From contig JAPPDJ010000018.1 in assembly GCA_028824555.1 (NCBI GenBank), positions 1 through 64,000 of the forward strand: a stretch of 64,000 nt of DNA. The letters run 5' to 3'. The translations under genes and the position numbers were made by a program. The notes beneath the pieces are model-generated. The model was given only the letters and a program-made list of their open reading frames with translations. It searched no databases and had not been told where the DNA came from. Position 1 is the stretch's first letter; the number at the start of each line of letters is the position of its first letter. The stretch is from Gammaproteobacteria bacterium (GTDB lineage Bacteria > Pseudomonadota > Gammaproteobacteria > Pseudomonadales > Azotimanducaceae). Shown here one piece after another: positions 4,114 to 37,435 of the stretch.

Positions 4114-4434
4114 TCAGGCCCCCGGCGGTCGATAGGCAACGCTCTTCGCTATCGCCTCGTCCACGGACTCAGGCGTCACCAGCACGGTGACCTTAATGTT
4201 GAGCGCTCCCGCAGCGCCAATGGCGATGGACAACGCCGTGGCCGCGGTTTCGTCAGGCAGGTCGACGATGAGATATATGTCCCACTCGCCGAAGGCGTAG
4301 TACAGCGCCTCCACCGTGCCACCCACGCTCTGAACCGTAGCCGTCAACGCGGCGCGCCGCGACGTTCCACCTTCCCGCTGCAGCCCGGCAAGTCCGGCCT
4401 GCGTGTAGTTGGCCTGGAACAGATACTTGCCCAT
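4114..4434 (-). CDS. GYD-domain protein
   Basis: This small protein of 106 residues is a GYD-domain family member (ferredoxin-like alpha/beta fold, named for a Gly-Tyr-Asp type motif). The family opens YLFQANYTQAG as here, and the characteristic stretch is YYAFGEWDIYLIVDLPDE. No biochemical role is established for the family. The start MGKYLF at 4434 is chosen because GAGGAGG lies directly upstream. It lies 36 bases upstream of the sialidase-like gene on the same strand, so the two may be co-transcribed. Confidence 0.8.
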   Translation of the reverse strand: MGKYLFQANYTQAGLAGLQREGGTSRRAALTATVQSVGGTVEALYYAFGEWDIYLIVDLPDETAATALSIAIGAAGALNIKVTVLVTPESVDEAIAKSVAYRPPGA

Positions 4435-17984: not shown

Positions 17985-19115
17985 ATGACGACGCTTACCA
18001 TCACCGGCGGCAAGCGGATTGACGTGGATGCCGGCACGACTCGCGACGACGATCTTCACATCGCCGACGACGTGGTCGTGGAAACCCTTGACCGACCGGC
18101 GGACCGGGTCGTGGACGTCCGCGGTGCCTTCGTCGCACCCGGTTTCATCGACCTGCACACGCACGTCTTCAGCCACCCGCTCTTCACCACCGCTCGCCTC
18201 GAAGCAGACCGCATCGGCACGCGCCAGGGGGTGGCTTGTGTGGTCGATGCCGGGTCGTCGGGGGCGACCACCGTCGACGCGTTCCCACGTTTCGTCCATG
18301 AGACGCAGCAAACGCGGGTGTTCGCATTCATCAACATCGGCAGCCCGGGCCTGCCGAATCTGGGTGGTGGCCATGCCTCGCGCCCGGACCTTTGCGATCT
18401 GCCCGGTGTCGTGCGCGCGCTCGAGCGCCACGACTGGCTGGTGGGCGTGAAGGTGCTCGCCAGCGCCTCGCACACCGGCAGCTTTGGCATCGAAGCGGTG
18501 AAGCTGGCACGCAAGGCGGCAGAACTGGCGGGCAAGCCGATGATGCTCCACATTGGCAACGCTCCACCGCTGATCGACGACGTGCTCGAGCTGCTGCGCC
18601 GCGGCGACATCGTCACGCACACCTACCACGGCAAGGTAGGCGGCGTTCTCGGCTATCGCGATCGGGTGATACCGGCCTTTCGCGATGCGGTGGAACGGGG
18701 TGTGATCGTCGATGTGGGGCATGGCCGCTCGTCGTTCAGCTTCCGGGTTTGCGAAACGGCGCTGGCGCAGGGCCTGCCGGTACACACGATCAGCTCGGAC
18801 CTGCACCGCGGCAACCTCGATCACCATGCGGTGTCGCTGGCACGCACGATGAGCAAGCTGCGTGCGCTCGGCATGTCGCTGATGGACACGGTGCGGGCGG
18901 TCACCCTGGCCCCTGCGGGGGCCGTTGGCCTCGAGCAGCTCGGCTTCGGAAGCTTCACCGTCGGCAGGCCCGCTTACGCCACCGTGTTCGAGGAGACCAC
19001 CGAACCGTGGCAAGTGGAGGATGCCGAGGGCGAACTGCGCACCGTACCCGGCCGCATCGAGACCCGGGGCGTCGCCATCGGCAGCACCTACCACGAGCGG
19101 GACGCCCCCTTGTGA
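17985..19115 (+). CDS. Amidohydrolase/deacetylase of the EF_0837 type
   Basis: The 376-residue metal-dependent hydrolase belongs to the amidohydrolase superfamily. The HxH metal motif is in GFIDLHTHVFSH (His58, His60). A probable carboxylated lysine is in WLVGVKVLAS, further metal ligands are in MLHIGNAPP and VTHTYHGK, and the catalytic Asp is in HTISSDLHRGN. Members of this group are encoded beside a SelA-like PLP enzyme, as here (the next gene overlaps by 4 bases), and are predicted to deacetylate an N-acetylated sugar acid or similar compound. Together they suggest breakdown of an amino sugar acid. Function is inferred from context. Confidence 0.82.
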   Translation: MTTLTITGGKRIDVDAGTTRDDDLHIADDVVVETLDRPADRVVDVRGAFVAPGFIDLHTHVFSHPLFTTARLEADRIGTRQGVACVVDAGSSGATTVDAFPRFVHETQQTRVFAFINIGSPGLPNLGGGHASRPDLCDLPGVVRALERHDWLVGVKVLASASHTGSFGIEAVKLARKAAELAGKPMMLHIGNAPPLIDDVLELLRRGDIVTHTYHGKVGGVLGYRDRVIPAFRDAVERGVIVDVGHGRSSFSFRVCETALAQGLPVHTISSDLHRGNLDHHAVSLARTMSKLRALGMSLMDTVRAVTLAPAGAVGLEQLGFGSFTVGRPAYATVFEETTEPWQVEDAEGELRTVPGRIETRGVAIGSTYHERDAPL

Positions 19116-20203
19116 ATCCGTTTCGCCGCATCGGCGTCGAAACCGTCATCAATGCGGCCGGCAAAATGACCGCTCTCGGCGGATCGGCCCAACACGAGAC
19201 CGTGGCCCAAGCGCAGGCCGAGGCGGCCCGGGCGCATGTGGATCTGGCGGAACTCCGCCATGCCGCCGGCCAACGCATCGCTGCCCGCACCGGCGCCGAG
19301 GCGGCCTGCATCACCACCGGGGCAGCCGCCGGCATCGCCATCGGCGTCGCCGCCATCCTCACCGGGCGCGACCTCGAGAAGATTCGTCGCGTGCCCGATG
19401 TCCCTGCACCGAGGGACATACTGATCCAACGCGGCCATGACGTGGACTTCGGCGCGGAAGTGACGCAGATGATCCGCCTGGGCGGCGGTCGACCGGTGGT
19501 GTTTGGCACCCTCGATGCCGTGACCGAGGACGACTTCTCTACGGCGTTGGCGGCGGACCCCAAGGCCCTCGTGTACGTCAAGTCGCACCATGCAGTGCAG
19601 CAGAATCGACTGTCGCTCGACGCTTGCCTCGGCCATGGCGTTCCGGTGTTGGTGGACGCTGCCGCAGAAAGCGATGTTCTGAGCTACATCGCGGCCGGCG
19701 CCGATCTGGTGACGTACTCCGGCGGCAAGGCCATCGGTGGGCCAACCTGCGGCTTCATCGCCGGTCGCCGCGATCTCATCGAAGCGTGCGAGTTGCAGGG
19801 CCGTGGCATCGCCCGCGCCATGAAGGTGGGCAAGGAACAGATCATGGGCCTGATGGCGGCGCTCGACAGGTTCGAGCCGTCCGCCGGCGACGACGAGGCC
19901 ATTCTCGCCGCGCTCCATGCTGGACTCTCGTCGTTCGCGAACGCGCGCATCGTCCCGGACCGCGCCGGTCGCCCCATCCGCCGGGTGGGCCTGGCAGACC
20001 CGCCCGACATGCTGCATGCCCTAGTGCAGCATCTGGCCGCCAGCGCACCGAGCATCCGCACCCGCAACCACCAGCTAAACGAAGGTCTGCTCCTGTTCGA
20101 CGTGCGCGAACTGCGTCGGCACGACGTGGCCACCATCGTCGAACGCGTACGCGCTTTCTACACCGACGTCGCGCCCTCGGGCAGCTGCAGAGGCTCCGCT
20201 TGA
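19112..20203 (+). CDS. SelA-like PLP enzyme, D-glucosaminate-6-phosphate ammonia-lyase (DgaE) type
   Basis: The 363-residue fold-type I PLP enzyme is related to SelA but belongs to the short DgaE/EF_0838 branch. The PLP lysine is in VTYSGGKAIGGP (Lys206). The N-terminus VETVINAAGKMTALGGS is typical, and the IRRVPDVP segment fits the group. DgaE converts D-glucosaminate 6-phosphate to 2-keto-3-deoxygluconate 6-phosphate plus ammonia. The start is GTG 19112, in a GTGA overlap with the deacetylase stop. It is not selenocysteine synthase, so it should not be linked to the selenoprotein at 35.8 kb. No KDPG-type aldolase (DgaF) is adjacent. Confidence 0.78.
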   Translation: MNPFRRIGVETVINAAGKMTALGGSAQHETVAQAQAEAARAHVDLAELRHAAGQRIAARTGAEAACITTGAAAGIAIGVAAILTGRDLEKIRRVPDVPAPRDILIQRGHDVDFGAEVTQMIRLGGGRPVVFGTLDAVTEDDFSTALAADPKALVYVKSHHAVQQNRLSLDACLGHGVPVLVDAAAESDVLSYIAAGADLVTYSGGKAIGGPTCGFIAGRRDLIEACELQGRGIARAMKVGKEQIMGLMAALDRFEPSAGDDEAILAALHAGLSSFANARIVPDRAGRPIRRVGLADPPDMLHALVQHLAASAPSIRTRNHQLNEGLLLFDVRELRRHDVATIVERVRAFYTDVAPSGSCRGSA

Positions 20204-33724: not shown

Positions 33725-34675
33725 CTAACGAATCGCGATGGGATTGATGATCATCTGCACTGCGCCGCGCACCTTGGCCTGCCCAAGCACGAACAGGAAC
33801 TCGAACGCGCCGTCACGCACCAGCGGACCGGTGTTCATCGTCTCCAAGATGTAGATGCCATTCTCCTTCAGCAGGATGACGTGGCCCTGGAAGGGTCGGG
33901 CCGGATCCGGCGGTGGCACCACGTCGAGGCCCCAGGTGTCGGCGCCCACTGCGACCACGTTCTTGTCCGCCATGTATTGCGCCACTTCCTCGGTCTGGCC
34001 CGGCTCCGCCGCCACCCAAACCTCCGGCTCCGCTACCAGCTTGGCGTCCGTCCAGCCGGTGTGGAACAGCACCACATCGCCTTCCCGAACCGGCGTGCCC
34101 TGCTTCTGCTGCACCGATTCGACATCCTCCACGGTGAAGTACTGCCCCGCCTCCATGCTCTCGACGCCGAAGTGGCCGGCCATGTCCAGCACGATGCCGC
34201 GTGCGACGATGGGCGGGACTTTCTCGATGCCGAGCTTGGTGAGGCCCGTGATGCCGGCGAAGTCGCTGGCGTGGTTGCAGTTGTAGTAGGTGCCGTCGGG
34301 GCCGCCGAGATGCCCCAAGCCGTCGATCTGCGGCCCGATGCCGAACCACCCTTGGAAGACGTCGTCGTTGTAGGTGGCGTTCGGGAACGGCCGGTTGCCC
34401 TCCTGCTGGTTCGGCTGCACCACCTGCAGCATCAGGCCGCGTGGCGCGAAGGCCGGGGTGGTGGAGTCGATGACGATGCCGAGGCTGTAGGTCTTGCCCG
34501 TCTTGATGAGCTTGGACGCCGCCAGCACCGACTCTGCCGTGATGAGGTTGGCGCTACCGATCTCGTCGTCCGCGCCCCAGTGCGAGTGCTGGCACTCGTC
34601 CGCCCACGCCGCGCCGCCGAATGCTGCGGCCAGCAATGCCGACGCGACCACGCGCGTCCCATGTTGCCTGTTCAT
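33725..34675 (-). CDS. Cyclase family (kynurenine formamidase-like) protein, exported
   Basis: The 316-residue protein has a signal peptide (MNRQHGTRVVASALLAAAFG, continuing to AWA). It belongs to the metal-dependent cyclase/formamidase family (PF04199). The canonical HxGTHxDxPxH zinc site is altered: the segment reads IDGLGHLGGPDGTYYNCN, keeping one His, as in the larger cyclase-family group found with dehydrogenases. DVVLFHTGW and VVGVDTWGLD-like stretches are typical. ATG 34675 has a strong AAGGAGG. It heads the two-gene unit with the TauD-like oxygenase. The reaction is unknown. Confidence 0.82.
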   Translation of the reverse strand: MNRQHGTRVVASALLAAAFGGAAWADECQHSHWGADDEIGSANLITAESVLAASKLIKTGKTYSLGIVIDSTTPAFAPRGLMLQVVQPNQQEGNRPFPNATYNDDVFQGWFGIGPQIDGLGHLGGPDGTYYNCNHASDFAGITGLTKLGIEKVPPIVARGIVLDMAGHFGVESMEAGQYFTVEDVESVQQKQGTPVREGDVVLFHTGWTDAKLVAEPEVWVAAEPGQTEEVAQYMADKNVVAVGADTWGLDVVPPPDPARPFQGHVILLKENGIYILETMNTGPLVRDGAFEFLFVLGQAKVRGAVQMIINPIAIR

Positions 34676-34775
34676 GCCCCCTCCTTGTCGCTTTGCCCGC
34701 GCCAGGAGGCCGTCGCTACGGGGCGGCCTTCTGCTTGGGCTCCGGTGTTAGCGCGCCCTTTCGGGCGCCTCGGCC

Positions 34776-34820
34776 AACAGCCTTCGGACCTCGCCGCTAC
34801 GACGCAGTCCGAAGGCTGTT
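34776..34820. promoter_or_regulatory. Perfect 14-bp inverted repeat in a divergent intergenic region
   Basis: AACAGCCTTCGGAC (34776-34789) and GTCCGAAGGCTGTT (34807-34820) are exact reverse complements separated by 17 bases. They lie between the divergent cyclase-family (start 34675) and enoyl-CoA hydratase (start 34862) genes. No T-tract follows and no gene ends here, so an operator or repeat remnant is likelier than a terminator. A smaller hairpin, GCGCGCCCTTTCGGGCGC, lies just upstream. Confidence 0.6.
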
Positions 34821-34861
34821 AGCATCGTCGCAAGTGTGCTGGAGGGCAAGGGCAGCAAAAC

Positions 34862-35680
34862 ATGACCGAAACCGACGAGATTCTGTGCGAGCGCAAGGGT
34901 GAACAGGACGGCATCCTCTGGCTGACGCTGAACCGGCCGGAGCGCCTGAACGCATTGACGTTCCCGCTCCTGCGCAAGATGCGGGAGATCCTCGTGGACG
35001 CCCGCTTCGACCGCACCGTGCGCTGCGTCGTCATCACCGGTGCCGGACGCGGCTTCTGCGCCGGCATGGACATGGCAGGCGGCAGCGGCGGCGAGTCACA
35101 GCCGTCGGACGGCTCCGTGGATGTCGAAGGCTATCGGCTCAACTTCCGCCACGAAGTGGAAACCTACGTTGCGCTCCGGCGCCTCGAGGTGCCGGTGGTT
35201 GCCGCCGTCAATGGCCCCTGCGTCGGTGCCGGCTTCGACCTCGCCAGCCACTGCGACCTCGCCATCGGCTCGACCGCCGCCCGCTATCAGGTGGCCTACG
35301 TGCGCCGAGGTCTCTACGCCGACCTTGGCGGCTTCTGGTCGCTGCCGAAGATCCTCGGCTGGCGCAAGGCGATGGAGATGATGATGACCGGGCGCTTCAT
35401 GAGCGCCGAAGAGGCGCACGAGTGCGGCTTCACCAACTATCTGGTCGAGCCGGACGAGTTCGACGAGCGAGCGATGGAGTTCGCGCTGCAGATCGAGGCA
35501 GGCCCTCCCATCGGCCAGAAGGTGGGCAAGATGCTCGCCTATCGCACGGCGCATCTCGACTACGACACCGCCATGCAGTGGTCTGAAACCGCCATACCGC
35601 TGGTGGGGCTGTCGCAGGACTTCGGCGAGGGCGTGGCGGCATTCCGCGAGAAGCGCGACGCGACCTTCAAGGGGCGTTAG
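34862..35680 (+). CDS. Enoyl-CoA hydratase/isomerase family protein
   Basis: The 272-residue crotonase-fold protein has the N-terminus GILWLTLNRPERLNALTFP. The first oxyanion segment is AGRGFCAGMDMAGG and the second is VNGPCVGAGFDLASHCDLAI. The usual catalytic Glu region reads VRRGLYADLGGFWSLPKILG, again without an obvious Glu pair. It acts on acyl-CoA thioesters. It is the first of three same-strand genes (glutathione peroxidase, CaiB-type CoA-transferase), and the pairing with the CoA-transferase suggests degradation of an organic acid through its CoA ester. ATG 34862 follows GGAGGGCAAGGGCAG. Confidence 0.87.
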   Translation: MTETDEILCERKGEQDGILWLTLNRPERLNALTFPLLRKMREILVDARFDRTVRCVVITGAGRGFCAGMDMAGGSGGESQPSDGSVDVEGYRLNFRHEVETYVALRRLEVPVVAAVNGPCVGAGFDLASHCDLAIGSTAARYQVAYVRRGLYADLGGFWSLPKILGWRKAMEMMMTGRFMSAEEAHECGFTNYLVEPDEFDERAMEFALQIEAGPPIGQKVGKMLAYRTAHLDYDTAMQWSETAIPLVGLSQDFGEGVAAFREKRDATFKGR

Positions 35681-35749
35681 CAACCTCCCGTGGCGACCTT
35701 TGGCCGCATCTACCACACGCAGTCCTCAGGCCATTGACAGGAGGCAGCA

Positions 35750-36220
35750 ATGACCGCCTTCCACGACATCACCATGAACGCCATCACCGGCGAGCCGTTG
35801 ACCTTCTCCAAGTACAAGGGCCAAGCGTGCCTGGTGGTGAATCTCGCCAGCCAATGAGGCATGACCAAACAGTACGCAGGTCTGCGTACCCTGCAGGAGA
35901 GCGGCGCGGTGACGGTGCTTGGCTTCCCCTGCAACCAGTTCGGACGCCAGGAACCCGGCAGCAACGAGGAAATCCTTGAGTTCGCCCGCTCCCGCTACGA
36001 CTGCAACTTCCAGCTCTTCGAGAAGGTGGAGGTGAACGGCGACGGCGCCTGCGAGCTCTATCGGTTGCTGAAGGCCGCACAGCCGGGTGCCGACGGTGGC
36101 GAGGACATCCCCTGGAACTTCACCAAGTTTCTCGTCGGCCCAAACGGCAACGTGCTGGCGCGCTACGAACCAGGCATGACGCCTGCCAAGATCGGCGAAG
36201 ACCTCTCGTCACGCCTATGA
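35750..36220 (+). CDS. Glutathione peroxidase, probable selenoprotein (UGA read as selenocysteine)
   Basis: The 156-residue thiol/seleno-peroxidase would reduce hydroperoxides with glutathione or thioredoxin. ATG 35750 has AGGAGG a few bases upstream. The frame meets TGA at 35855-35857 (residue 36), exactly where the catalytic Cys/Sec stands: CLVVNLASQ, TGA, GMTKQYAGL. The rest of the family follows in the same frame to 36220, including FPCNQFGRQEPGSNEEI (catalytic Gln) and PWNFTKFLVGPNG (catalytic Trp and Asn). A SECIS-like hairpin follows the TGA. Conventional calling would start at 35861 and lose the active site. A sequencing error (TGA for TGC) is the alternative; the hairpin argues against it. 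No sel genes are in the window. Confidence 0.9.
35870..35893 (+). promoter_or_regulatory. Bacterial SECIS-like hairpin
   Basis: A 7-bp stem GTACGCA (35872-35878) and TGCGTAC (35883-35889) is closed by the loop GGTC, 21 bases after the TGA counting to the loop. An outer CA/TG extension is interrupted by a CC bulge. The central decamer GCAGGTCTGC is the same as the apical part of the E. coli fdhF SECIS element, which binds SelB. The distance fits bacterial SECIS elements. Confidence 0.82.
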
Positions 36221-36247
36221 GCCACCACATGCGCTAAGGGGAACACC

Positions 36248-37435
36248 ATGCCGGCACTCGATGGCCTGCGCATTCTCGACATGACCCAATACGAGGCGGG
36301 CACCTCCTGCACCCAGGCCTTGGCGTGGCTCGGTGCCGACGTGGTGAAGGTGGAGGCGCCGGGACGCGGTGACCCCGGCCGTGGCCCAAGCGGCAACGGC
36401 GAGTACTTCGTGGTCTGGAACTCCAACAAGCGCAGCGTCGCCATCGACCTCAAGAACCCCCGCGGTCGCGCCCTCTTGCTCGACATGCTGCCGAACTACG
36501 ACGTGTTCGTGGAGAACTACGGCCCCGGCGTGATGGAGAAGCTCAATCTCACCTACGACGTGATGAAGGCCGTGAAGCCCGACATCATCTATGCCCGGCT
36601 CAAGGGCTTCGGCCTCAGCGGCCCCTGGGCCGACTACAAGTGCTACGACATGGTGGCGCAGTCCGCTGCCGGCGCCTTCTCCATCACCGGCGAAGCGGAC
36701 GGGCCGCCCCTTCGCCCCGGCCCTACCACCGGCGACGCCGGCACCGGCGTGCAAATGGCCCTCGCCATCTCCGCCGCCTACATCCAGAAACTCAACACCG
36801 GCAAGGGGCAAATGATCGAGGTGTCGATGCAGGAGGCCATGACCTACTACCTGCGCACCGCCACCTCCGGCGGCAACTACGGCGAACGCGCCGCCCGCCG
36901 CTCCGGCAACGGCGGCCTGCCCACCATGACCCTCTACCGCTGCCAGGGCGACGGCGCCAACGACTACGTGTACATCATGGCCGTCACCCCACGCATGTGG
37001 GAATCGTTGGCGCACGCCATCGGCCGCGCGGACCTGCTCGAAGACCCACGCTTCAAGGAGCCAAGGAACCGCTACGCCAACGCCGAGGCCCTCCAGGCCG
37101 AAATCGAGGCGTGGACCCTCGCGCGCGACAAGTATCAAGCCATGCGCGAACTCGCCGAGGGCGGCGTACCCGCCAGCGCCGTGCTCGACACCGCCGACCT
37201 CTACCGCAACCCCCACCTCGTCGAACGCGGCTTCGTCCACGAAGTGGAACACGACGCCCTCGGCAAGGTGACCCTGCTCGGCTGGGCCGCCCGCATGTCC
37301 GAAAGCCACGTCCCCATCAAGGCCGCCCCCCTGCTCGGCAGCCACACCCGGGAAGTGCTAGGTGCGGACCTCGGCTTGGACGATGCGGCGATGGAAGAAC
37401 TGTCGGCAGCCGGCATCGTCGGCGAACCCGGCTAG
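36248..37435 (+). CDS. CaiB/BaiF family (class III) CoA-transferase
   Basis: The 395-residue transferase moves CoA between carboxylic acids through an aspartyl-CoA anhydride. The N-terminus LDGLRILDMTQYEAGTSCTQ is typical, followed by LGADVVKVEAPGRGDPGRG. The catalytic Asp is probably in WADYKCYDMVAQSAAGAFS. SMQEAMTYYLRT and GVPASAVLDTADLYRNPH are later family segments. It follows the glutathione peroxidase by 27 bases and lies downstream of an enoyl-CoA hydratase, fitting activation of an organic acid and its breakdown. The acid is not identifiable. A family A paired repeat lies after the stop. Confidence 0.9.
   Translation: MPALDGLRILDMTQYEAGTSCTQALAWLGADVVKVEAPGRGDPGRGPSGNGEYFVVWNSNKRSVAIDLKNPRGRALLLDMLPNYDVFVENYGPGVMEKLNLTYDVMKAVKPDIIYARLKGFGLSGPWADYKCYDMVAQSAAGAFSITGEADGPPLRPGPTTGDAGTGVQMALAISAAYIQKLNTGKGQMIEVSMQEAMTYYLRTATSGGNYGERAARRSGNGGLPTMTLYRCQGDGANDYVYIMAVTPRMWESLAHAIGRADLLEDPRFKEPRNRYANAEALQAEIEAWTLARDKYQAMRELAEGGVPASAVLDTADLYRNPHLVERGFVHEVEHDALGKVTLLGWAARMSESHVPIKAAPLLGSHTREVLGADLGLDDAAMEELSAAGIVGEPG

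Follow-up and report, generated by a model that had tools for sequence, protein, structure and literature searches.

A glutathione peroxidase gene with a predicted selenocysteine codon, and without the resolving cysteine of bacterial homologues, in a gammaproteobacterial lineage

The locus and its reading frame

The window analysed here is the whole stretch of 64,000 nt, which belongs to a 4.2-Mb gammaproteobacterial genome (96% complete, a draft of 182 contigs). It harbours a gene for a glutathione peroxidase (GPx) with an in-frame TGA at codon 36 (Table 1), which an earlier note, made from the letters of the DNA, had proposed to be read as selenocysteine (Sec). Direct reading bore out the ATG at 35750 with its AGGAGG, the TGA at 35855-35857 and the continuation of the frame to 36220. 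The final stop is again a TGA (36218-36220), and apart from codon 36 the frame is open from the ATG. The internal TGA lies at the catalytic position of the family, in the motif NLASQ-TGA-GMTKQY as claimed, and homologues have TGA, TGC or TGT there.

Table 1. Features of the GPx locus (positions within the window)
Feature	Position	Strand	Remarks
AGGAGG ribosome-binding site	35739..35744	+	5 nt before the ATG; read directly
Sec-glutathione peroxidase gene	35750..36220	+	156 residues with TGA codon 36 as Sec; Pfam GSHPx, predicted model
TGA codon 36	35855..35857	+	peroxidatic residue, predicted selenocysteine; TGA/TGC/TGT at this codon in homologues
Shortened frame from ordinary ORF calling	35861..36220	+	119 aa, without the active-site residue
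SECIS-type hairpin	35872..35889	+	stem GTACGCA/TGCGTAC, loop GGTC at 35879-35882; low synonymous variation of its codons
Codon 79 (Ala)	35984..35986	+	where bacterial Cys-GPx have their resolving cysteine
Codon 101 (Cys)	36050..36052	+	near-invariant within the Sec clade

The 156-residue read-through product matches the Pfam family GSHPx over the full profile with 120.6 bits (cut-off 27); the 119-aa frame matches it from profile position 36 only. An AlphaFold2 model of the product, with Cys replacing Sec, has a mean pLDDT of 94.9. When this predicted model was used for a fold search in the PDB, the best matches were GPx-family chains. By their titles, the 50 matches listed are GPx-family structures or GPX4-derived designs, and they include tryparedoxin peroxidase and human PDI-peroxidase. 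The predicted fold is shared with mammalian GPX4 (PHGPx; 2obi, 6elw and 6hn3, TM 0.89-0.90 by query length); the sequence identity in the fold match is about 44%.

The earlier note had foreseen that ordinary gene calling would yield a truncated protein, and the ORF list indeed gives only the 119-aa frame. Ordinary ORF calling of this gene results in a shortened peroxidase without its active site. This list and the draft state of the assembly would also suit a real stop at codon 36, due to a pseudogene or to a sequencing or assembly error; the gene would then yield no more than a shortened product starting at 35861. This possibility is weighed below, together with the distribution of the codon.

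Sec-GPx is already a known bacterial selenoprotein family, of which the gene described here is a further member. In the accessible parts of the respective papers, Sec-GPx with a bacterial SECIS element is reported from the Sargasso Sea data set, with five sequences in the table (PMC1088965), it is listed for the Global Ocean Sampling data set, where the first number in the table row is 40 (PMC2398784), and it is described for Treponema denticola (PMC1794560). The tables of two reviews, also available in part, give the motif UxxT for the family (PMC13188914, PMC9312934), which is fitted by UGMT in our protein. A GSHPx domain with Sec predicted at the peroxidatic position and a SECIS directly downstream is common to our gene and the family as outlined in the available text of PMC1088965. 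In contrast to the Sargasso Sea, Global Ocean Sampling and T. denticola members, the gene described here is gammaproteobacterial, judging by the titles of its nearest records. Less expected is that the Sec residue shared by this lineage goes with the absence of the second catalytic cysteine.

The hairpin downstream of the TGA codon

A hairpin starts 14 nt past the TGA, in which 35872-35878 pairs with 35883-35889. The 7-bp stem and its GGTC loop had been described before and were recovered by direct reading and by folding. A hairpin that directly follows the UGA and carries a guanosine in its small apical loop corresponds to the bacterial SECIS as defined in the accessible part of PMC1088965. 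In mammalian genes such as that of GPX4, the SECIS lies in the 3'-UTR according to the general rule given in the same text, whereas here it is located in the coding region.

The sequence GCAGGTCTGC, which the earlier note had likened to the apex of the E. coli fdhF SECIS, was found in E. coli fdhF too, and both elements carry the GGUC loop on a GCA/UGC upper stem. The fdhF stretch of 47 nt used for this comparison matches 5,368 of 5,426 E. coli genomes, and the three rows listed are all annotated as fdhF. The two elements differ in that the stem described here has seven continuous pairs and its loop is 21 nt away from the UGA, while the fdhF fold contains a bulge and the loop distance is 18 nt. 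The bulged U of the fdhF SECIS has a role in SelB binding. According to the folding, a bulged U of this type below the upper stem is absent from our hairpin.

The folding energy of the hairpin alone is not unusual when compared to shuffled sequences (z -1.08, and z -0.53 in a second test), and the case for the hairpin thus rests on its conservation. An Rfam scan of the window gave no match at the gathering thresholds. For the comparison with relatives, identical stretches were collapsed and the interrupted gene described below (L059) was dropped, and L031 had no row, which left 29 distinct stretches with TGA and 69 with Cys. GCAGGTCTGC is present in 23 of the former and in none of the latter. 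It is missing from six TGA stretches, of which three have ACACAGGTCTGTGT, changed on both sides of the stem so that the pairing is kept, and the other three have the 6-base loop CGGGTT instead of GGTC on a stem of 6-7 bp. Three further TGA stretches of the 29 have a mismatch within the stem. The hairpin energies overlap in their ranges, with a mean of -8.9 and a weakest value of -5.3 kcal/mol in the Sec stretches versus a mean of -2.9 and a best value of -8.2 kcal/mol in the Cys stretches, of which two (2/69) can form a 7-pair stem somewhere if G-U is allowed.

The codons of the stem-loop (41-46) show low synonymous variation. Its four conserved four- or sixfold degenerate codons, 43-46, have a synonymous entropy of 0.48-0.52, as compared to a lowest value of 0.61 and a mean of 1.6 for the 40 other conserved codons of this kind (stem-loop lower, p 6e-4). 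The third base of codon 47 is no longer part of the stem; this codon varies more (entropy 1.33) and was counted among the other codons. This conservation at synonymous sites argues against a real stop at codon 36. Covariation is weak: the seven stem pairs are formed in 96.8% of the cells (27 sequences), and one pair changes on both sides, from G-C to A-U, in three sequences. Two of five covariation measures do not exceed the shuffles; "pairs changed on both sides" was reached in 157 and "further pair types" in all of 500 shuffles. Moreover, a hairpin slid by -2 scores slightly higher in covariation (0.088 vs 0.079).

Selenocysteine genes and the distribution of the TGA form

The presence of selA, selB, selD and tRNA-Sec in the genome had been set beforehand as the test on which the selenocysteine reading could fail, and all four were found. 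The genes selA (515.8 bits) and selB (382.6 bits) are adjacent on contig 99, about 6 kb from the gene for tRNA-Sec (67.1 bits), and selD (243.7 bits) is located on contig 88; all scores are over the respective cut-offs. ARAGORN also reports a tRNA-SeC with the anticodon tca. The genome contains one GPx match only, and it also harbours the glutathione synthetase gene gshB (390.7 bits, over the cut-off).

The earlier note had stated that the window holds no other selenoprotein or sel gene. A coarse screen of the window for frames joined by a TGA, with a coding-like GC content to either side of it, gave four, of which the Sec-GPx gene alone was taken as a candidate. Another consists of the terminal TGA of the Sec-GPx gene and the gene that follows, while the frames at 4116 and 29167 resemble, by eye, unrelated genes lying side by side. 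As to sel genes, Pfam SelA partially matches the protein encoded at 19112-20200 (+), with 45.2 bits over profile positions 192-259 of 367. As a selA gene it was rejected, with 49.3 bits against the selA cut-off of 267.9 and with the selA of this genome located on contig 99. The frame beside it, 17985-19115, is amidohydrolase-like by eye. The neighbours of the GPx gene in 33725-37435 encode an enoyl-CoA hydratase/isomerase family protein, a family III CoA-transferase and a putative cyclase, and no link to selenium was seen in them. At the level of the genome, a second fdhF-like TGA-hairpin at C163 was also discarded, since the pattern gave three matches (two of them at the Sec-GPx gene) and the backward control two, which is not above chance. 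In a search limited to the FdhA and SelD families, the matches in the genome (six and three places, respectively) contain no internal stop.

The distribution of the TGA form was analysed in 58 genomes, namely the own genome and 57 relatives. A GPx match was found in 51 of them, and 28 have the TGA form, which recurs down to 54% protein identity. Such a recurrence is more than chance would give. The 28 genomes span 15 genus codes, and the frame is otherwise intact over the match in 27 of them; in the remaining one (G014) the gene is interrupted. The TGA codon was checked on the fetched locus in 27 genomes, and in G014 via the same contig, fetched as L059. A selA match is present in all 28 genomes with the TGA form, in 27 of them over the cut-off and in one (G033) as a contig-edge fragment with 262.7 bits (cut-off 267.9), as compared to 7 of the 23 genomes with stop-free matches only (Fisher p 3e-8 by genome, and 2e-5 if every genus code is entered a single time). 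Outside the family, the TGA form was found in a genome of another family of the same order (G039). Two named records, L060 and L061, contain it as well, and the title of L061 is K189A clade. In a class-wide sample of 274 genomes, of which 85 have a GPx match, it was found in the own genome only.

The same TGA in so many genomes with an otherwise intact frame, each of them with a selA match, argues strongly against a real stop, and we consider a pseudogene or a sequencing or assembly error very improbable. It is also conceivable that the UGA is read as another amino acid, by near-cognate suppression or in a changed code. Read-through of UGA by other tRNAs occurs in other organisms, but nothing specific favours it here, and the GPx frame itself ends in TGA. 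Further, the genome encodes tRNA-Sec together with selA, selB and selD. Of the 109 loci covering codon 36, 39 have TGA, 49 have TGC and 21 have TGT there, a count in which some genomes are present twice because two collections were used; a further locus, L031, which brings the total to 110, is a fragment of the interrupted gene and does not include the codon. Where it is not TGA, the codon thus specifies Cys in 70 of 70 loci, which also speaks against an arbitrary amino acid, and we regard this explanation as extremely improbable.

Based on these comparisons, 35750-36220 is almost certainly a functional glutathione peroxidase in which the catalytic residue 36 would be selenocysteine. In the proposed mechanism, SelB would bind the GGUC hairpin just 3' of the UGA in the mRNA and deliver tRNA-Sec, which would decode the UGA at 35855. 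Peroxides, the presumed substrate, would then be reduced via Sec36 together with Gln67, Trp122 and Asn123. Correctly read, the gene indicates selenium use for peroxide defence in this lineage.

The absent resolving cysteine and the history of the predicted Sec residue

The residues Gln67, Trp122 and Asn123, which we take to be the catalytic residues of the GPx family, are kept downstream in the same frame, as had been claimed. They are invariant in 29 Sec and 96 Cys proteins; the Cys set consists of the best matches to our query and is not a random sample. In yeast Gpx3, the resolving cysteine is Cys82, located in the helix after the FPCNQF strand. Position 79 matches it by the spacing from the peroxidatic Cys, and it can therefore be assigned as the site of the bacterial resolving cysteine. 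In line with this assignment, bacterial GPx have both cysteines according to the available part of PMC8614756.

Position 79 is Cys in 95 of the 96 Cys proteins and in none of the 29 Sec proteins, which have Ala (28) or Val (1) instead. In our protein it is Ala79, and thus the resolving cysteine of two-cysteine (thioredoxin-type) GPx is lacking. The Sec proteins differ in this point, and in Sec for Cys at position 36, from the two-cysteine Cys-GPx of bacteria and yeast, with which they share the family and the catalytic Gln, Trp and Asn. In the aligned GPX4 chain 8q8n the resolving position is likewise occupied by Ala; however, the aligned GPX4 chain has His where our protein has Cys101. A limited literature search revealed no title or beginning of an abstract dealing with bacterial Sec-GPx that have lost the resolving cysteine, which is no claim that such a loss is unpublished. 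For Sec-GPx of sponge symbionts, the titles and abstract beginnings returned held nothing on the topic, the match concerning tumour ferroptosis.

In a quick tree of 127 distinct proteins, in which codon 36 was masked, all 29 Sec proteins fall into one clade (SH-aLRT 99), which also contains two Cys proteins (L042 and L049, from the genomes G029 and G034, respectively). Duplicates were collapsed by identical sequence, and the interrupted gene (L059, L031) was left out of the tree and of the residue comparison. Four genomes of the same family have a stop-free match only (G022, G025, G029 and G034), G029 and G034 alone being represented in the tree; both have selA. Three changes between Sec and Cys suffice on this tree, compared to a mean of about 26 in shuffles. 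The simplest reading is one gain of Sec followed by two returns to Cys, although the unrooted tree cannot prove the direction. In both nested Cys proteins position 79 is not Cys, and the stretch downstream of codon 36 no longer folds into the hairpin.

The absence of Cys79 together with the presence of Cys101 suggests either a GPX4-like mechanism with one Sec or a substitute resolving cysteine. The Sec enzyme probably works like GPX4. Since it lacks the resolving cysteine of its bacterial Cys homologues, oxidised Sec36 would most likely be reduced by glutathione, and the presence of gshB suits this reductant. Alternatively, Cys101 could be the new partner of Sec36 in the second step. Such a rewired two-residue cycle, in which Cys101 (or Cys27) would resolve Sec36 and thioredoxin would perhaps be the reductant, could explain why Cys101 is found in 28 of 29 Sec but only in 3 of 96 Cys proteins, and Cys27 in 24 of 29 versus none of 96. 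Both nested Cys proteins, moreover, keep Cys101 without a cysteine at position 79. However, the three Cys-GPx with Cys101 also have a cysteine at position 79, and Cys101 may therefore have another role. Considering also gshB, we find a rewired cycle rather unlikely, and prefer reduction by glutathione.

It is tempting to speculate about the history of the lineage as a whole, even if the following scenario is a doubtful one. A two-cysteine GPx would have turned into a one-Sec enzyme, the gain of Sec going with the loss of the resolving cysteine and Cys101 becoming fixed as the partner of Sec; at least two members would later have gone back to Cys, the resolving cysteine remaining absent and decayed hairpins being left behind. 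If true, this would provide a natural series in which the reasons for gaining and losing Sec could be studied. In any case, the 28 genomes with the TGA form, the two nested Cys members and the transposon-interrupted gene are a comparative set for studying gain and loss of Sec and its link to the resolving cysteine.

Two single loci deserve a description of their own. In the Cys form of L042 (1501-1956), GGTC is kept at the loop position while the stem is degraded, and the stretch looks like a relic SECIS. In L059 (264-3012), which is the gene of G014 by contig coordinates, an insertion of 2,733 bases splits the Sec-GPx gene inside the hairpin. The insertion has perfect terminal inverted repeats of 25 bases and is flanked by an 8-base target duplication spanning the loop; its minus strand codes for a transposase of the IS1595/ISXO2 type.
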